From Sphingomonas sanxanigenens DSM 19645 = NX02 (GTDB lineage Bacteria; Pseudomonadota; Alphaproteobacteria; Sphingomonadales; Sphingomonadaceae), in assembly GCF_000512205.2 (NCBI RefSeq), contig NZ_CP006644.1, forward strand, positions 186,001 to 250,000: a stretch of DNA of 64,000 bases, read 5' to 3'. A program made the position numbers and the translations under genes. This document shows positions 3,237 to 22,072 of this stretch, piece by piece (positions within the stretch are counted from its first letter, which is position 1; every line of letters begins with the position of its first letter). The notes beneath the pieces were generated by a model. The model made no database searches and was not told the DNA's origin. It worked only from the letters and a program-made list of their open reading frames with translations.

Positions 3237-4249
3237 CAATAGGCCCGGGCGACCGCGAACTCGACCGCCTCGACCATCGCGGCCTTGGCGGCGCTGGCGT
3301 GGAACCCGCCGATCGCGTCGATCGCGCGCTGGCCGTAGAGGCGGGCGCGGGCCATGGTGTCGGCGATCGCGCCGCTGTCGCGCAGCAGCTGCGTCGCGTG
3401 GGCGAGATCCTCGTCGCTCACCCGGTGGCCGGCGATCGCCTCGCGCCAGAACGCCTTCTCGCTTTCGGACCCGCGCGCATAGGCGAGGATCACCGGCAGG
3501 GTCACCTTGCCGTCGCGGAAATCGTCGCCGGCATCCTTGCCCATCGTCGCGCCGTCGGAGGCATAGTCGATCGCATCGTCGACGAGCTGGAAGGCGATGC
3601 CCAGGTTGCGGCCGTAGGAATCGAGCGCCAGTTCGGCCGTCTCGTCACGCTCGGCCACCACCGCGGCGATGCGGCAGGCGGCGGCGAACAGCGCGGCGGT
3701 CTTGGCGCCGATGATCTCCAGATAGCGATCCTCGCCCAGATCGATGCGGCGCTGCGCGGTGAGCTGGTTGACCTCGCCCTCGGCGATCACCGCGCTGGCG
3801 TTGGAGAGGATCCGCAGCACCTTGAGGCTGCCTTCCTCCACCATCAGCTCGAACGACCGGCTGAACAGGAAATCGCCCACCAGCACGCTCGCCGGGTTGC
3901 CCCAGATGATGTTGGCGGTGCGGCGGCCGCGGCGCATGCCGGAGCCGTCGACGACATCGTCGTGCAGCAACGTCGCGGTGTGGATGAACTCCACGGCGGC
4001 CGCCAGCTTGTGGTGGCGCGATCCGGTATAGTCGAGCAGCCGGGCGCTCGCCAAGGTCAGCATCGGGCGCATGCGTTTGCCGCCGCCGGCGATGAGGTGG
4101 CCGGCGAGTTCGGGGATCAGCGGGATCTCCGACTGCATCCGGGCCAGGATCACCTGGTTGACGGCGTTCATGTCACTCGCAACGAGGCCGAGCATCGCGT
4201 CGAGCGAGGGCGGCCGCGAGGGGTTCATACGATGTACTGTCGCGCTCAT
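3236..4249 (-). CDS. ispB: all-trans long-chain polyprenyl diphosphate synthase
   Basis: 337 aa from the ATG at 4249; an alternative ATG lies at 4228. It has the two Asp-rich metal sites of trans-prenyltransferases: LLHDDVVDGSGMRRG (first, DDxxD type) and LVDDAIDYASD (second). GGGKRMRP for IPP binding and the following Gly/Lys-rich GKDAGDDFRDGKVTLP are also present. This is the octaprenyl/nonaprenyl/decaprenyl class that makes the ubiquinone side chain from FPP and IPP. It is not a GGPP synthase, so it should not be read as the carotenoid crtE. Product length cannot be set from sequence by eye. It diverges from the chorismate mutase-like gene and is followed by a coupled small membrane protein. 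Confidence 0.88.
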   Translation of the reverse strand: MSATVHRMNPSRPPSLDAMLGLVASDMNAVNQVILARMQSEIPLIPELAGHLIAGGGKRMRPMLTLASARLLDYTGSRHHKLAAAVEFIHTATLLHDDVVDGSGMRRGRRTANIIWGNPASVLVGDFLFSRSFELMVEEGSLKVLRILSNASAVIAEGEVNQLTAQRRIDLGEDRYLEIIGAKTAALFAAACRIAAVVAERDETAELALDSYGRNLGIAFQLVDDAIDYASDGATMGKDAGDDFRDGKVTLPVILAYARGSESEKAFWREAIAGHRVSDEDLAHATQLLRDSGAIADTMARARLYGQRAIDAIGGFHASAAKAAMVEAVEFAVARAY

Positions 4250-17879: not shown

Positions 17880-18323
17880 TCATCGCGCTTTCGCCAGCAA
17901 CGCATCGAGCGACCACGCTCCGCCGCCGCGGGCGATCAGCGGCAGCAGGATCGCCGTCCAGCTCAGATGGGTCGGCCAGGCGTCGGGATAGACGAAGATC
18001 TGGATCGTTGCCGTCATGCCCAGCAGCGCAAGCGCGGAGAGGCGGGTGCAGAGGCCGGCAACGAGCAGCAGCGGAAAGAGATGCTCGGCGCCGGTCGCCG
18101 CGATCGCGGCGGCATCCGGCGGGATCAGCGGCAGCGCATATTCGCTGCGGAACAGCTCATAGGTGCTATCCGTGATGTGCAGCACGCCATCCACCTTGGT
18201 CCGGCCGGACAGGAAGAAGATCGCGGCGATGCCGAGGCGGGCGACGAGCAGCAGCAGCGTATCGGGCAGCAGCGCCGACGCGGCCCGGGCGAATCGCGCA
18301 TGCAATGCGGCGAGCGAAGCCAT
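17880..18323 (-). CDS. DoxX family membrane protein of the bufferin operon
   Basis: 147 aa with four hydrophobic segments and the DoxX pattern [20 protein letters not shown], followed by [20 protein letters not shown]. DoxX proteins are small inner-membrane proteins proposed to take part in quinone-linked redox reactions. It lies 59 nt downstream of the DUF2282 precursor gene on the same strand, with a hairpin between. The same pairing occurs in the Caulobacter gig/bufferin operon as I recall it. A role in redox handling of copper or of the peptide is inference. Confidence 0.88.
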
Positions 18324-18343
18324 GATGGTCTCCGAATAGAGGG

Positions 18344-18377
18344 ACGGGCCGGGAAGCGGGATCGCCGCCCGGCCCGT
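18344..18377 (-). terminator. intra-operon hairpin between bufA1 and doxX
   Basis: Perfect 10-bp stem (ACGGGCCGGG at 18344-18353 with CCCGGCCCGT at 18368-18377) and a 14-nt loop, with no U-tract. It probably terminates part of the transcripts or protects the 3' end of the precursor mRNA, leaving doxX at lower expression. Confidence 0.55.
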
Positions 18378-18382
18378 GGAGG

Positions 18383-18658
18383 TCAGGCCTTCGGCGTCAG
18401 CGAGCCAGTGCCCTTGGGCGTCTTGATCGATGTGCAGGTGCCGGCCTTCACCAGCGTCCAGGCATTGCCCTGATAATCGACCTTGGAGGTGCCGGCGCAG
18501 CTCGTGCCGGCGCCGGCCTTGCAGTCATTCTTGCCGGCGAGCGACACGCCATAGCATTTTTCCATCTTTTCCTGGCCCGCCTGGGCGCTCGCCGGGGTGG
18601 CGAGTGCGGCGGCGGCGATCGCCAACGTGGCGGCAAGCGTGGCGTGGGTGGTGCGCAT
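18383..18658 (-). CDS. bufA1: bufferin-type precursor peptide, DUF2282 (BufA1-like)
   Basis: 91 aa. The ATG at 18658 follows GAGGAT. Signal peptide 1-25 ([14 protein letters not shown]). The mature part has four Cys at 35, 46, 54 and 75 in the DUF2282 pattern [14 protein letters not shown]...[12 protein letters not shown]...GTC. By my recollection of bufferin work, the two central Cys become thiooxazole groups that bind copper and the outer two form a disulfide. The modifying enzymes would be the DUF692/DUF2063 pair encoded at 20466-22072, since no other pair is in view. Driven by a sigma-type promoter at 18764-18789. Confidence 0.88.
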
Positions 18659-18763
18659 TGGATGATCCTCGAGAATATGAATGCCTCTTCGCGCGGCCCG
18701 GCGGGGGCTGCCGGACCGCGCGGTGACACGGGAGGAGGCGGGAGACCGTGTCACTGAAGCGAA

Positions 18764-18789
18764 TTCGCGACGGGACGTGCCGGGGTTAC
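18764..18789 (-). promoter_or_regulatory. ECF (SigF-like) promoter of bufA1-doxX
   Basis: On the minus strand, GTAACC (18789-18784), 16 nt, CGAA (18767-18764). The same spacing and sequence occur at 18822 and 20060, so this is very likely the promoter read by the adjacent ECF sigma factor. The leader to the bufA1 ATG is about 100 nt. It matches the Caulobacter SigF consensus as I remember it. Confidence 0.8.
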
Positions 18790-18821
18790 GCGGAGGTTCA
18801 AGAAAAAATCGCAATCGCGGT

Positions 18822-18847
18822 GTAACCTGGCCGGCACCCCAGCCGTA
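18822..18847 (+). promoter_or_regulatory. ECF (SigF-like) promoter of the sigma gene
   Basis: GTAACC (18822-18827), 16 nt, CGTA (18844-18847), 20 nt before the sigma-factor ATG. The -10 has T where the other two have A, so autoregulation may be weaker. Its -35 lies 32 bp from that of the divergent bufA1 promoter. Confidence 0.75.
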
Positions 18848-18867
18848 CCTGCGAGCGAGGAGCATGG

Positions 18868-19407
18868 ATGCGGGCGGACGAAGCGCTTCTGCGGCGATTG
18901 ATGGTCGATGGGCTCGACGGTGACGCCGGGGCGCATACCGCGTTGTTGCGCCTGCTCGTTCCCCTGCTGCGCGGCTTCTATCGGCGGCGCGTCAGCGGCG
19001 CCGACGATGATATCGAGGATCTGGTGCAGGAAACGTTGATTGCGGTCCACACACGGCGCGCGACCTATGATCGGGATCGCACGTTTACCGCCTGGTTGTT
19101 CGCGATCGCGCGCTACAAGATGATCGATCATTTTCGCCGACGCCGTCGCCTGCTGCCGATCGAGGGGATGGAGGAGATGCTCGTCGCCGACGATTTCGAG
19201 GCGGCGGTGCTCGCCCGGCTGGATATCGACGATCTGCTTGCGGGGCTGCCCCCCAAGCAGGCGCAGATGATCCGTGCGACCCGGGTCGAGGGTCTGAGCA
19301 TCGTCGAGGCGGCGGAAGCGGGCGGCATCGGCCAATCCGACGTGAAGGTGTCGGTGCATCGCGGCATCAAGAGCCTCATCGCGCGCGTCCACGGAAGCGC
19401 GCGATGA
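18868..19407 (+). CDS. sigF: ECF RNA polymerase sigma factor, SigF-like
   Basis: 179 aa. The ATG at 18868 is preceded by GCGAGGAG. Region 2 contains [18 protein letters not shown] and [20 protein letters not shown] (about 50-92). Region 4 is [19 protein letters not shown] followed by the helix-turn-helix to ARVHGS (about 125-175). The gene is coupled (ATGA) to an NrsF-like anti-sigma gene and flanked by two bufferin precursors, matching the SigF-NrsF arrangement of Caulobacter that responds to copper, cadmium or chromate stress. Expected targets are the three GTAACC-N16-CGNA elements seen here. Confidence 0.92.
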
Positions 19408-20045
19408 AGACCGACGATCTCATCGCCGACCTCGCGCGCGATACCCGGCCGGTGCGGCGCGGCGCCGTCGGGCGGCGCATCGCGACCGGGCTGGTGCTCG
19501 GCGCGCTGGTCTCTGCCTTGCTGGTGACGTTCTGGATGGGCATTCGCCCCGATCTCGGCAAGGCGATGCGCGGTTTCTCTTTCTGGATGAAGTGGGGCTA
19601 TACCGCGTCGCTGACGCTCGCCGCCCTGGTCGTGACGGTACAGCTTGCCCGGCCCGACAGCGATCGGCTGCGGGGGCTTTGGCTCACCGCGATCCCGATC
19701 GCCCTGCTCGCCGTCATCGGCATCCTGGAACTGGTGCGCACGCCGCCCGCCGACTGGCTGGCGATGTGGCTGGGGCATAGCTGGACGAGTTGTCCCTGGC
19801 GGGTGCTGACGCTCGCCGTGCCGATCTTCGCAGGGCTGCTCTGGTCGTTCCGCCAGCTGGCGCCGACGCGGTTGCGCGCGACCGGGGCGGCGGCAGGGCT
19901 CGCCGCGGGCGCTTTCGCCGCAACCGTCTATTGCCTGCATTGCCCAGAGGTTTCGGCAATCTTCGTGCTGTCCTGGTATTCGCTCGGCATCCTGCTGGCG
20001 GCGGCGCTCGGCGCGCTGCTCGGGCCGCGGCTGCTGCGCTGGTGA
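19404..20045 (+). CDS. nrsF: NrsF-like membrane anti-sigma factor (DUF1109)
   Basis: 213 aa with a short cytoplasmic N terminus ([17 protein letters not shown]) and six hydrophobic helices, the DUF1109/NrsF architecture. It has three Cys: Cys130 (SWTSCPWR) and Cys177/Cys180 (YCLHCPE). Two Cys at nearly these positions are reported as needed for metal response in Caulobacter NrsF (from memory, residues 131 and 181). It would hold the sigma factor at the inner membrane until metal binds or oxidises these thiols. The start overlaps the sigma stop (ATGA). Confidence 0.9.
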
Positions 20046-20059
20046 ATTCATCGCTGCCT

Positions 20060-20085
20060 GTAACCTGCCGGTGGGCGGCGGCGAA
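20060..20085 (+). promoter_or_regulatory. ECF (SigF-like) promoter of bufA2
   Basis: GTAACC (20060-20065), 16 nt, CGAA (20082-20085), 15 nt after the nrsF stop and 43 nt before the bufA2 ATG. It gives precursor 2 and the modification enzymes their own sigma-dependent start. Confidence 0.8.
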
Positions 20086-20127
20086 TGTGGAAGGCCAAAT
20101 CGGCAGGATTCCAAGAGGAGAGACCCT

Positions 20128-20403
20128 ATGATGATCACGCAGCAAAGCGCCCTCGGCATCGCCGCCTCCGCCGCCGTCGTCGCAGTGGCGATGGCGTCTG
20201 CCCCCGCCGCCGTCGCGGCCGACGAGGGCGCCAAGGCCGAAGTGGTCCATTGCTATGGCATCAACACGTGCAAGGGCACGTCGGACTGCAAGACCGCGAA
20301 GAATGAGTGCAAGGGCCAGAATGGCTGCAAGGGCCAGGGCTTCAAGGCGATGAGCACCAAGGATTGCAAGGCCGCCGGCGGCAGCCTGACCGAAGCGAAG
20401 TGA
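20128..20403 (+). CDS. bufA2: bufferin-type precursor peptide, six-Cys (BufA2-like)
   Basis: 91 aa from the ATG at 20128 (next codon is also ATG) after AGAGGAG. Signal peptide about 1-31 ([20 protein letters not shown]). The mature part is Lys/Gly-rich with six Cys at 42, 48, 54, 61, 67 and 80 in the pattern [30 protein letters not shown]. It differs from the four-Cys DUF2282 type but has the same start (CYG) and is followed directly by the DUF692 enzyme and its partner. Repeated CKG units suggest several modified Cys and more metal sites. It is probably the main substrate of BufB/BufC. Confidence 0.87.
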
Positions 20404-20409
20404 GCCGGC

Positions 20410-20441
20410 CCGGCCCGGCGGGGGATCACCCGCCGGGCCGG
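20410..20441 (+). terminator. strong hairpin between bufA2 and bufB
   Basis: Perfect 13-bp GC stem (20410-20422 with 20429-20441) and a 6-nt loop (GGATCA), starting 7 nt after the bufA2 stop. No U-tract. It likely causes partial termination or stabilises the precursor mRNA, giving much more peptide than enzyme. Confidence 0.65.
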
Positions 20442-20465
20442 ACGCTGTGCCCGAGGCATGACCCG

Positions 20466-21302
20466 ATGACCGCTCCCCCCTCTTTCGCCGGCTTCGGCCT
20501 CGGCCTGCGCCGGCCGCATTATGCCGATTTCCGGGCGGACCCCGTCCCGGTCGACTTCGTCGAGGTGATCTCGGAAAATTTCATGGTCGAAGGCGGCCGC
20601 CCCCGGCAGTTGCTGCGGGAGGTGCGCGCAGCCTATCCGGTGGCGTTGCACGGCGTGTCGATGTCGATCGGTTCGGCGGACGGGCTCGACGGCGCGTATC
20701 TCGCGCGGCTGCGCGCGCTGGTCGACGAGATCGCGCCGCTGTTCGTCTCCGACCATCTGAGCTGGACGCGGATCGAGGGGTTCAGCGCGCATGACCTGCT
20801 GCCGCTGCCCTATACGCAGGAGGCGCTCGATACGGTCTGCGCCAACATCCATCGCGCGCAGGACGCGCTCGGCCGAACGATGCTGGTCGAGAACCCTTCC
20901 ACCTATATCCGCTTCGCAGGGGCGGACATGAGCGAATGGGAGTTCCTCGACGCGATGTGTGCGCGCACCGGCTGCGGCCTGCTGCTCGACGTCAACAATG
21001 TCTTCGTCAGTGCGACCAACCATGGCTTCGATCCGATCGCCTGGCTCGATGGCATCCCGCACGATCGCGTGCGCCAGATCCATCTCGCCGGACACAGCCA
21101 GGGGGCCGAACTGCTGGTGGACACGCATGACCGCCCGGTGCCGGCCTCGGTGCTCGACCTCTATGCGCATGTGCTGCCGCGGCTGGGGCCGGTCGCGACG
21201 ATGATCGAGCGCGACGACGATATCCCGCCGCTCGGGGACCTGCTGGCCGAACTCGCCACCGTGCGCGGCATCGCCGCCACCGCGCTGAAGGAGGCGGTAT
21301 GA
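20466..21302 (+). CDS. bufB: DUF692 multinuclear iron enzyme (MNIO), bufferin-modifying BufB
   Basis: 278 aa from the ATG at 20466. TIM-barrel DUF692 landmarks: GFGLGLRRPHY, VDFVEVISENFM, VALHGVSMSIGS, FVSDHLSWTR, MLVENPSTYIRF, LLLDVNNVFVSATNHGFDP, IHLAGHSQG, VDTHDRPV and MIERDDDIPPL. The His/Asp/Glu/Asn set binds the iron cluster. MNIOs such as MbnB oxidise Cys in peptides (oxazolone/thioamide in methanobactin, thiooxazole in bufferins as I recall). It needs a partner, encoded next with a 4-nt overlap. Cytoplasmic; it would act before export of the peptide. Confidence 0.93.
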   Translation: MTAPPSFAGFGLGLRRPHYADFRADPVPVDFVEVISENFMVEGGRPRQLLREVRAAYPVALHGVSMSIGSADGLDGAYLARLRALVDEIAPLFVSDHLSWTRIEGFSAHDLLPLPYTQEALDTVCANIHRAQDALGRTMLVENPSTYIRFAGADMSEWEFLDAMCARTGCGLLLDVNNVFVSATNHGFDPIAWLDGIPHDRVRQIHLAGHSQGAELLVDTHDRPVPASVLDLYAHVLPRLGPVATMIERDDDIPPLGDLLAELATVRGIAATALKEAV

Positions 21303-22072
21303 GCCTGCTCGTCTTCCAGCGCGACATGCGCGCCTGGCTCGTGCGCGAGGATGAGGCGGCGGCGGCGCGCATCGGGCCGGATGCGGCGCCGGGCCTGCGC
21401 GTCCACCAGAACAATTATCGCGCGCAACTCGTCGCCTGTCTCGAAACGGGTTTCGAACGGACGCGCGCGTGGATCGGCGATGATGCCTTCCGCGCCGCGG
21501 CGGCATTCCACATCGATCGCGTGCCCCCCGGGGGCTGGACGCTGGATGCCTATGGGCAGGATTTTCCTTCAAGCCTCGCGCTCATCTATCCCGCCGATCC
21601 CGAGGTCGGCGAGCTCGCCTGGATCGATCTTGCGCTCGATGAAGCCTTTGTCGGCCCCGATGCGCCGGCGATAACGGCTGCGGACCTGGCCGATATCGAC
21701 TGGGACCGCGCGGTTCTGCGAATGGTGCCGACGATCGACATCGGCGATCTCGCGACCAATGCCGACCGCATCTGGACTGCGCTGGCCGCCGGCGAGGAAC
21801 CGCCGCCGCCGTATCGGCGCGACGCGCCGGGCGCGATCCTCGTCTGGCGGCAGGGGCTGGTGCCGCGCTTCCGTGCGATCGACACGGACGAGCAGTCGGC
21901 GCTGATCCGCGCACGCGCCGGGCTGCCCTTCACGGCATTGTGCGCGATTGCGGTCGAGGCGCTGGGGGAGCAACCGGGGATCGCGCGGGCGGGAGAATGG
22001 CTTGGCCGCTGGGTGAGCGATGGCCTGATCCGCGCGATCCTGTGCGGCGACGATCGCGCGGTTCATGATTAA
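21299..22072 (+). CDS. bufC: DUF2063 partner protein of the MNIO (BufC)
   Basis: 257 aa, starting in the ATGA overlap with bufB. N-terminal DUF2063 domain: FQRDMRAWLV, VHQNNYRAQLVACLETGFER, AFHIDRVPPGGWTLDAYGQD. The rest is a mixed domain typical of BufC/MbnC-like partners that recognise the precursor leader and complex with the DUF692 enzyme. DUF2063 was once labelled a putative DNA-binding domain; in this context the peptide-binding role is far more likely. Last gene of the operon; an AT palindrome (22067-22081) covers its stop. Confidence 0.9.
   Translation: MSLLVFQRDMRAWLVREDEAAAARIGPDAAPGLRVHQNNYRAQLVACLETGFERTRAWIGDDAFRAAAAFHIDRVPPGGWTLDAYGQDFPSSLALIYPADPEVGELAWIDLALDEAFVGPDAPAITAADLADIDWDRAVLRMVPTIDIGDLATNADRIWTALAAGEEPPPPYRRDAPGAILVWRQGLVPRFRAIDTDEQSALIRARAGLPFTALCAIAVEALGEQPGIARAGEWLGRWVSDGLIRAILCGDDRAVHD

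Follow-up and report, generated by a model that had tools for sequence, protein, structure and literature searches.

Can one MNIO and its partner protein serve bufferin precursors of two different families? The question is posed by positions 17880–22072 of a 64-kb stretch of contig NZ_CP006644.1 from Sphingomonas sanxanigenens DSM 19645 = NX02 (the whole stretch is called the window below), where a DUF2282 precursor gene with a DoxX gene behind it is divergent from a BufA2 precursor gene that leads into an MNIO (DUF692) gene and a DUF2063 gene. The text of the bufferin survey leaves open whether one MNIO/partner pair modifies several precursors or whether the surplus stays unmodified (PMC12452194). 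We find that the locus combines Buf1 and Buf2 bufferins and that, as a first-pass annotation of the window had proposed, its one BufB/BufC pair is probably used for two unlike precursors, BufA2 and the divergent BufA1 of the DUF2282 family. This reading, which we hold with good but not full confidence, is favoured by genome comparison because the enzyme is kept where BufA2 is absent and because the central Cys of DUF2282 are kept in genomes lacking a Buf1-type MNIO but lost in the one genus lacking any MNIO.

The genes named in the first-pass annotation were all found where it had placed them, each matching its family in Pfam or NCBIfam profiles, and its counts of four and six Cys held, as did its description of a bufferin-type regulon with precursors from two families and one adjoining MNIO/DUF2063 pair. 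The minus-strand precursor (18383–18658, 91 amino acids, four Cys) is a BufA1-type, or Buf1, DUF2282 peptide (PF10048, 86.2 bits, cut-off 22.4), whose N-terminus looks signal-peptide-like by eye. The plus-strand precursor (20128–20403, 91 amino acids, six Cys, with Cys-Lys motifs) has no Pfam match at E ≤ 0.1 and was identified by NCBIfam NF050166, “BufA2 family periplasmic bufferin-type metallophore” (104.9 bits, cut-off 60). It had been suggested to be an expanded metal buffer; because of this match, and because six Cys are standard for Buf2 (they are present in 90% of Buf2 precursors; PMC12452194), we regard it as an ordinary BufA2, and a new or expanded precursor is ruled out by the NF050166 match. 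The DUF2282 peptide also matches this model weakly, below the cut-off (29.1 bits), which agrees with the report that structural models of Buf1 and Buf2 are related (PMC12452194).

By gene order and profiles, the MNIO and a PME-type 1 partner sit immediately 3′ of BufA2. BufB (20466–21302, plus strand; PF05114, 359.7 bits; NF050167, 370.9 bits, cut-off 310) is of the Buf2 type in our trees, with IERDD at its selectivity site, and its relatives in the PDB are 3BWW, TglH (8HCI/8HI7), and MbnB. BufC (21299–22072, plus strand; PF09836, 60.4 bits) gave nothing useful in a sequence search against the PDB, but a fold search with its AlphaFold2 model (pLDDT 94.2) succeeded, with 3DEE (E 6.6e-7) and TglHI (E 2.6e-6) as matches. 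Much poorer matches, with E from 0.8 to 4.9, were to RRE proteins, among them TbiB1 and PqqD. By profile and modelled fold, BufC is a DUF2063 protein with an RRE-like domain.

The bufABC order is not found for BufA1: its neighbouring MNIO is divergent, no co-directional MNIO lies behind the DUF2282 gene, and the genome has no Buf1-type MNIO. According to the survey, that order is common rather than strict, and a sizeable share of precursors have no adjacent MNIO (PMC12452194). The whole genome (6.58 Mb, two contigs) encodes one DUF2282 protein over the cut-off, two BufA2, and two MNIOs, both directly behind a BufA2 and both of the Buf2 type with Asp after the catalytic Asp; neither is of the Buf1 type. 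The first-pass annotation had counted a single DUF692/DUF2063 set, which is correct for the window but not for the genome, as a second operon at C1:4.706 Mb (L006, 6212–9017) holds BufA2, an MNIO, a DUF2063-type partner recognized by our own profile, and then a DUF1206 membrane protein. The annotation had also named a second pair dedicated to one of the precursors as a finding that would speak against sharing. A second pair does exist, but by position neither pair is dedicated to DUF2282, because the second one follows its own BufA2.

The arrangement recurs across the family. Among 199 Sphingomonadaceae genomes, DUF2282 was found in 65, MNIO in 69, and BufA2 over the cut-off in 41, and of 43 BufA2 genes, 34 have a DUF2282 gene divergent from them (architectures and promoter classes here rest on our own profiles built from fetched loci). 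The facing pairs come with a short gap (24 cases, 275–384 bp between domain matches) or with the gap seen in the window (10 cases, 1517–1594 bp, with ECF sigma and NrsF genes inside). They occur in 33 genomes, 22 of which have exactly one DUF2282, one BufA2, and one MNIO. For the nine BufA2 genes without a facing DUF2282, two genomes have DUF2282 on another contig (G031, G151) and two have the gene on a contig shorter than 6 kb (G025, G134). G001, G094, and G196 carry ECF-NrsF-BufA2-MNIO-DUF2063 with no facing DUF2282, and in each a Buf1-type MNIO lies behind a DUF2282 gene elsewhere in the genome.

These counts bear on the explanation that BufA1 is modified by the second BufB/BufC pair, at C1:4.7 Mb. 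The pair is there, it has a Buf2-type site, and it seems to be under other control, because the 7-kb stretch around its MNIO has no sigma-F-type promoter match. We nevertheless consider this explanation quite improbable, as the second pair has its own BufA2 in front and in 23 of the 33 genomes that share the divergent arrangement there is only one MNIO of any kind.

Beyond the family sample, 80 named public BufA2 loci among the matches listed include 12 with a divergent DUF2282, eight of them in the form seen in the window (from Sphingobium, Novosphingobium, and Sphingomonas glacialis); in 64 the fetched stretch contains no DUF2282, and in 60 of those BufA2 adjoins an MNIO. An uncultured Caulobacter (L200) has both precursors and one MNIO in a single operon, DUF2282-DoxX-BufA2-MNIO-DUF2063. 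A scan of 385 alphaproteobacterial genomes found DUF2282 in at least 135 and MNIO in at least 149, and most DUF2282 genes among the matches listed have, by eye, a co-directional MNIO nearby. Three divergent cases in that scan (L181–L183) involve other kinds of MNIO (VEWDD) and were not used as support.

The enzyme persists where BufA2 is missing. In three genomes of genus g42 (G041, G120, and G179; loci L068, L107, and L141), DUF2282 faces MNIO-DUF2063, there is one MNIO per genome, and a second DUF2282 lies elsewhere; no BufA2 match at E ≤ 0.001 was found genome-wide and no open reading frame matching the BufA2 profile was found at the locus. The genus is represented by 61 genomes, nine of which have BufA2 over the cut-off, always with a divergent DUF2282 (9/9 loci); MNIO and DUF2063 are visible in eight of these loci, the ninth being masked behind BufA2. 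As the three BufA2-less MNIOs form one clade (100/99 in a tree of 84 MNIOs, 98 in a second tree) beside four siblings, the absence probably goes back to one loss. Their pN/pS values of 0.148–0.186 (three pairs) compare with 0.123–0.290 for seven siblings with BufA2 (21 pairs, leaving out two of the nine BufA2-bearing loci, L278 and L283), although the ratios are rough because synonymous sites are near saturation. MNIO and DUF2063 appear to be under purifying selection in the genomes where they face DUF2282 without BufA2. In two of the three MNIOs, Glu replaces the Asp thought to touch the Lys of BufA2. In a further genome, G191, a Buf2-clade MNIO (IERDN) shares its operon with two DUF2282 genes, and there is no BufA2 over the cut-off; this MNIO falls inside the Buf2-type fork (99/94 in the 84-MNIO tree), its exact place there being unsure.

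The reverse case is seen in the precursor. The two central Cys are reported as the modified ones in Buf1 (PMC12452194, Fig. 3 legend). All four Cys are kept in 39/39 DUF2282 copies of the 33 genomes that lack a Buf1-type MNIO (in two of these, G052 and G119, there is another MNIO that belongs to neither type), in 39/39 copies of genomes with the Buf1 type only, and in 17/19 copies of genomes with both types, the two exceptions being a fragment with an internal stop and a copy without the last Cys. These counts depend on an MNIO typing by a bit-score threshold of 344, taken from the tree, together with hand assignments, with seven MNIOs set aside as neither type (that of L074 in G052 among them), and on a DUF2282 alignment of 99 of 100 rows, one row having fallen out. 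In genus g52, represented by G051 and G127, both DUF2282 proteins have lost the two central Cys and kept the outer two, and neither genome has an MNIO.

The residue after the catalytic Asp has been described as a selectivity site, with Asp in MNIOs of Cys-Lys (Buf2) precursors (PMC12668002). In the family loci, Asp occupies this position in 38 of 42 BufA2-adjacent MNIOs and in none of 27 MNIOs behind DUF2282, counted over 86 rows of which 17 with no called precursor in front were left uncounted; the MNIO of the window reads IERDDD. The 84-MNIO tree, from which two of the 86 rows were omitted as shorter than 150 amino acids (the second tree additionally drops four distant rows), likewise splits Buf1 and Buf2 types and places both MNIOs of S. 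sanxanigenens on the Buf2 side. One locus, L049, is labelled as lacking BufA2 in both the alignment and this tree; the genome search shows that it has one.

It is this difference between MNIO types at the selectivity site that lends some weight to the explanation that only BufA2 is modified, the DUF2282 peptide acting unmodified, with DoxX, as a thiol/disulfide metal binder that is merely co-regulated. The survey itself gives as one alternative that, where precursors outnumber enzymes in a genome, the surplus stays unmodified (PMC12452194). However, an unmodified peptide does not sit well with central Cys that are kept in every copy from genomes lacking a Buf1-type MNIO and lost where there is no MNIO, with an MNIO and DUF2063 that are kept and constrained in three genomes whose only detected precursors are DUF2282, or with the G191 operon, in which a Buf2-clade MNIO accompanies two DUF2282 genes. 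We therefore regard this explanation as rather unlikely, while taking it to be the most serious of the alternatives.

The two precursors also share their control. In Caulobacter, the sigma-F site is GTAACC-N16-CGAA (PMC3511200). The window contains exactly three matches to GTAACC-N16-CG[AT]A, against 0.12 expected from base composition, and none to the reversed pattern. Each lies 5′ of one unit and points at it: 18764–18789 (minus strand, CGAA) precedes BufA1-DoxX, 18822–18847 (plus strand, CGTA) precedes the ECF sigma gene, and 20060–20085 (plus strand, CGAA) precedes BufA2-BufB-BufC. Because these are the only three such sites in the window and each precedes one unit, the three units form one regulon. 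The DoxX-family membrane protein (17880–18323, minus strand; PF07681, 62.3 bits) lies 3′ of the DUF2282 gene. The ECF sigma factor (18868–19407, plus strand; Sigma70_r2 and Sigma70_r4_2) is judged to be of the sigma-F type from its NrsF partner and the sites. NrsF (19404–20045, plus strand; PF06532, 260.7 bits) is over the Pfam cut-off but under that of NCBIfam NF042994 (190.2 vs 300). Its Cys130 and Cys180, kept in 57/57 NrsF rows of the family loci including that of the window, correspond by position to Cys131 and Cys181, which matter in the Caulobacter protein, where NrsF releases the sigma factor upon metal stress (PMC3511200).

Across loci, the strict site stands 5′ of DUF2282 in 12/18 loci with the long, window-type gap and in 15/29 with the short one, and 5′ of BufA2 in 15/18 and 21/29, respectively; the BufA2 of the window is scored as a miss in this count owing to a misplaced start. 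Both precursors have it in 10/18 long and 11/29 short loci, and at least one has it in 17/18 and 25/29. The comparison classes gave 19/42 for DUF2282 with an adjacent co-directional MNIO and 7/68 for BufA2 without DUF2282. The reversed strict pattern was found in no locus class, and the reversed looser pattern was non-zero (10 rows in all). Over the whole genome, base composition alone would give about 12 matches to GTAACC-N16-CG[AT]A. The listed genome matches to GTAACC-N16-CGAA are four, two in the window and two 1.4 kb apart near C1:6.046 Mb. One of the latter, at C1:6045410–6045435 (minus strand; L191, 2411–2436), lies about 24 bp 5′ of a DUF417 membrane protein gene that is followed by a gene for a glutamate-synthase-domain protein, and is possibly a further sigma-F target, or a chance match.

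Several observations weigh against a shared enzyme. MNIOs group according to the family of their precursor and differ between families in their selectivity residues, both in our family loci and in the survey (PMC12452194), and FonBC left Cys unprocessed when a charged residue came next (PMC12668002); for this reason a Buf2-type MNIO may reject DUF2282. A prediction that the divergent DUF2282 would have a Lys after Cys2 did not hold as a rule: the Lys is present in 9 of 10 long-gap family loci, the peptide of the window reading NDCKAG, but in no short-gap locus. No clear leader motif common to the signal peptides of both precursors was seen by eye in the N-termini of 26 loci. The second BufB/BufC pair of the genome could act on BufA1. 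The promoter case rests on position, because the looser pattern GTAAC-N17/18-CGAA is not enriched genome-wide (27 matches vs 52 reversed). As for the natural experiments, the loss of BufA2 and the loss of Cys in g52 are one event each, and the three g42 MNIOs nest with their four siblings at an SH-aLRT of only 87 in the second tree. Moreover, the BufA2 model matched nothing in the genome of Caulobacter vibrioides, used as a control, for which Buf2 has been reported (PMC12452194); its silence in the three g42 genomes is consequently weak evidence, and they may hold a divergent second BufA2.

The Lys after Cys could be taken as a sign of adaptation to a Buf2-type enzyme. We rejected it as evidence and treat it as a clade marker; four co-directional DUF2282 proteins (two in L054, one each in L100 and L145) carry it as well.

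How did BufA1 come to lack enzymes of its own? Two complete enzyme sets stand back to back in G020 (L053) and Sandarakinorhabdus rubra (L203), and apparently in G166, where they are split over contigs. Because G020 and Sandarakinorhabdus carry such sets, we suggest that the present form of the locus arose through loss of BufB1/BufC1. A further reading is that the locus is a decaying remnant, in which BufA1 has lost its own BufB1/BufC1 and is itself being lost; the same sets make such a loss of enzymes plausible as its origin, and one degenerate DUF2282 each occurs in G122 (L112) and G154 (L126). Neither of these is a divergent copy, however, and continuing decay is hardly credible given that BufA1 has pN/pS values of 0.08–0.32 in genus g42, that all four Cys are present in 36/36 divergent DUF2282 copies, and that strict promoter matches stand 5′ of DUF2282 at the frequencies given above. 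In L126 (G154, contig C6), it is the DUF2282 before a Buf1-type MNIO that has an in-frame TAG; the divergent copy in this genome is intact.

A shared enzyme would work as follows. By analogy with Caulobacter, metal stress would relieve NrsF and free the ECF sigma factor, which would then read three promoters, its own and those of BufA1-DoxX and BufA2-BufB-BufC. BufC, through its DUF2063 and RRE-type parts, would present precursors to the MNIO BufB, which would turn Cys into thiooxazoles. BufA2 would be the cognate substrate of the operon and BufA1, most simply, the second. Both peptides would then be exported by Sec and would buffer copper in the periplasm, as proposed for bufferins (PMC12452194). 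We infer the modification of BufA1 and its chemistry, and likewise the binding of copper and the inducer. Extended to the Sphingomonadaceae, the proposal would be that one Buf2-type MNIO/PME pair installs thiooxazoles on both the six-Cys BufA2 and the facing four-Cys DUF2282 after the latter lost its own enzymes, and that in some lineages the pair was handed over wholly to DUF2282 upon deletion of BufA2. We lean towards this broader version, somewhat less firmly than towards sharing at this locus.

The closest parallel is the sigma-F regulon of Caulobacter, which comprises CC3254–3257 (DUF2282, MNIO, DUF2063, DoxX), CC2907–2905 (precursor, MNIO, DUF2063), and sigF-nrsF (PMC3511200). The gene families, the GTAACC-N16-CGAA site, and the pairing of DoxX with DUF2282 are the same, and in both cases two bufferin units are under one ECF sigma/NrsF pair. 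However, the Caulobacter units are two distinct operons with an MNIO and a DUF2063 gene apiece, whereas here one locus has one pair. Both Caulobacter precursors are listed as DUF2282 (PMC3511200); our guess is that CC2907 is the C. vibrioides Buf2 mentioned in the survey (PMC12452194). The BufA2-BufB-BufC order, the six Cys, and the NF050166 and NF050167 matches are those of the Buf2 (BUF_6/12Cys) clusters described there, but a DUF2282-DoxX unit is attached here. The survey text reports sigma/NrsF genes for Buf1 clusters but not for those of Buf2; ECF sigma and NrsF genes stand directly 5′ of BufA2 at this locus and at 12 others in the family. Tandem-precursor clusters in the survey also have more than one precursor per MNIO, whereas the precursors here are from two families, divergent, and each provided with its own promoter match (PMC12452194). 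In the captophorins (fontiphorin, gonophorin, and oxazolin), an MNIO with PME1 likewise installs 5-thiooxazoles on Cys of secreted peptides; their precursors have Lys-Cys repeats, of which there are none at this locus (PMC12668002, PMC13097082).

In the literature searched, which did not extend to figures, supplements, or most papers behind a subscription (the original bufferin paper among them), we found no description of this divergent two-family locus. Each of its components was known before; what is new, as far as we have seen, is how they are combined and the comparative argument for a two-family enzyme. With two precursor families, one enzyme pair, and one regulon kept in dozens of genomes, the locus makes the question of a shared enzyme testable, and natural controls are available in genomes where BufA2 is missing with the enzyme kept or the enzyme is missing with the target Cys lost. 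If sharing is true, partner recognition and MNIO selectivity would be so broad as to cover precursors of two families; this would help in engineering thiooxazole peptides that bind copper and in predicting what gene clusters produce.

Some further loci were noted along the way. The divergent DUF2282/BufA2 locus, together with NrsF, also occurs in the gammaproteobacterium Luteimonas kalidii (L220), and the placement of its MNIO within the sphingomonad clade (99 with L122) suggests horizontal transfer. In L183 (G556), a precursor-like open reading frame with repeated CKGQ/CKGH motifs (3869–4225, minus strand) lies beside the MNIO and was missed by our own BufA2 profile. In L050, L057, and L105, the MNIOs form a group of their own (GLGLRNV start) and stand behind a Cys-rich protein some 240 amino acids long (HACMGLNSCKA..., CHVQNDCKNQGGCG); the copy in L057 has no Pfam match, and the protein is perhaps a larger MNIO substrate. 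Finally, G052, which also has the divergent locus, carries a third kind of MNIO (L074) with DUF2063 and DoxX behind it and, in front, a signal-peptide-like open reading frame with GGKCASGKCG. From its sequence, we assign this set to the Lys-Cys (captophorin/oxazolin-like) kind in a sphingomonad; its MNIO is about 40% identical to the Buf2-type MNIOs, and the GKCG-type precursor-like reading frame overlaps the open frame of the MNIO.

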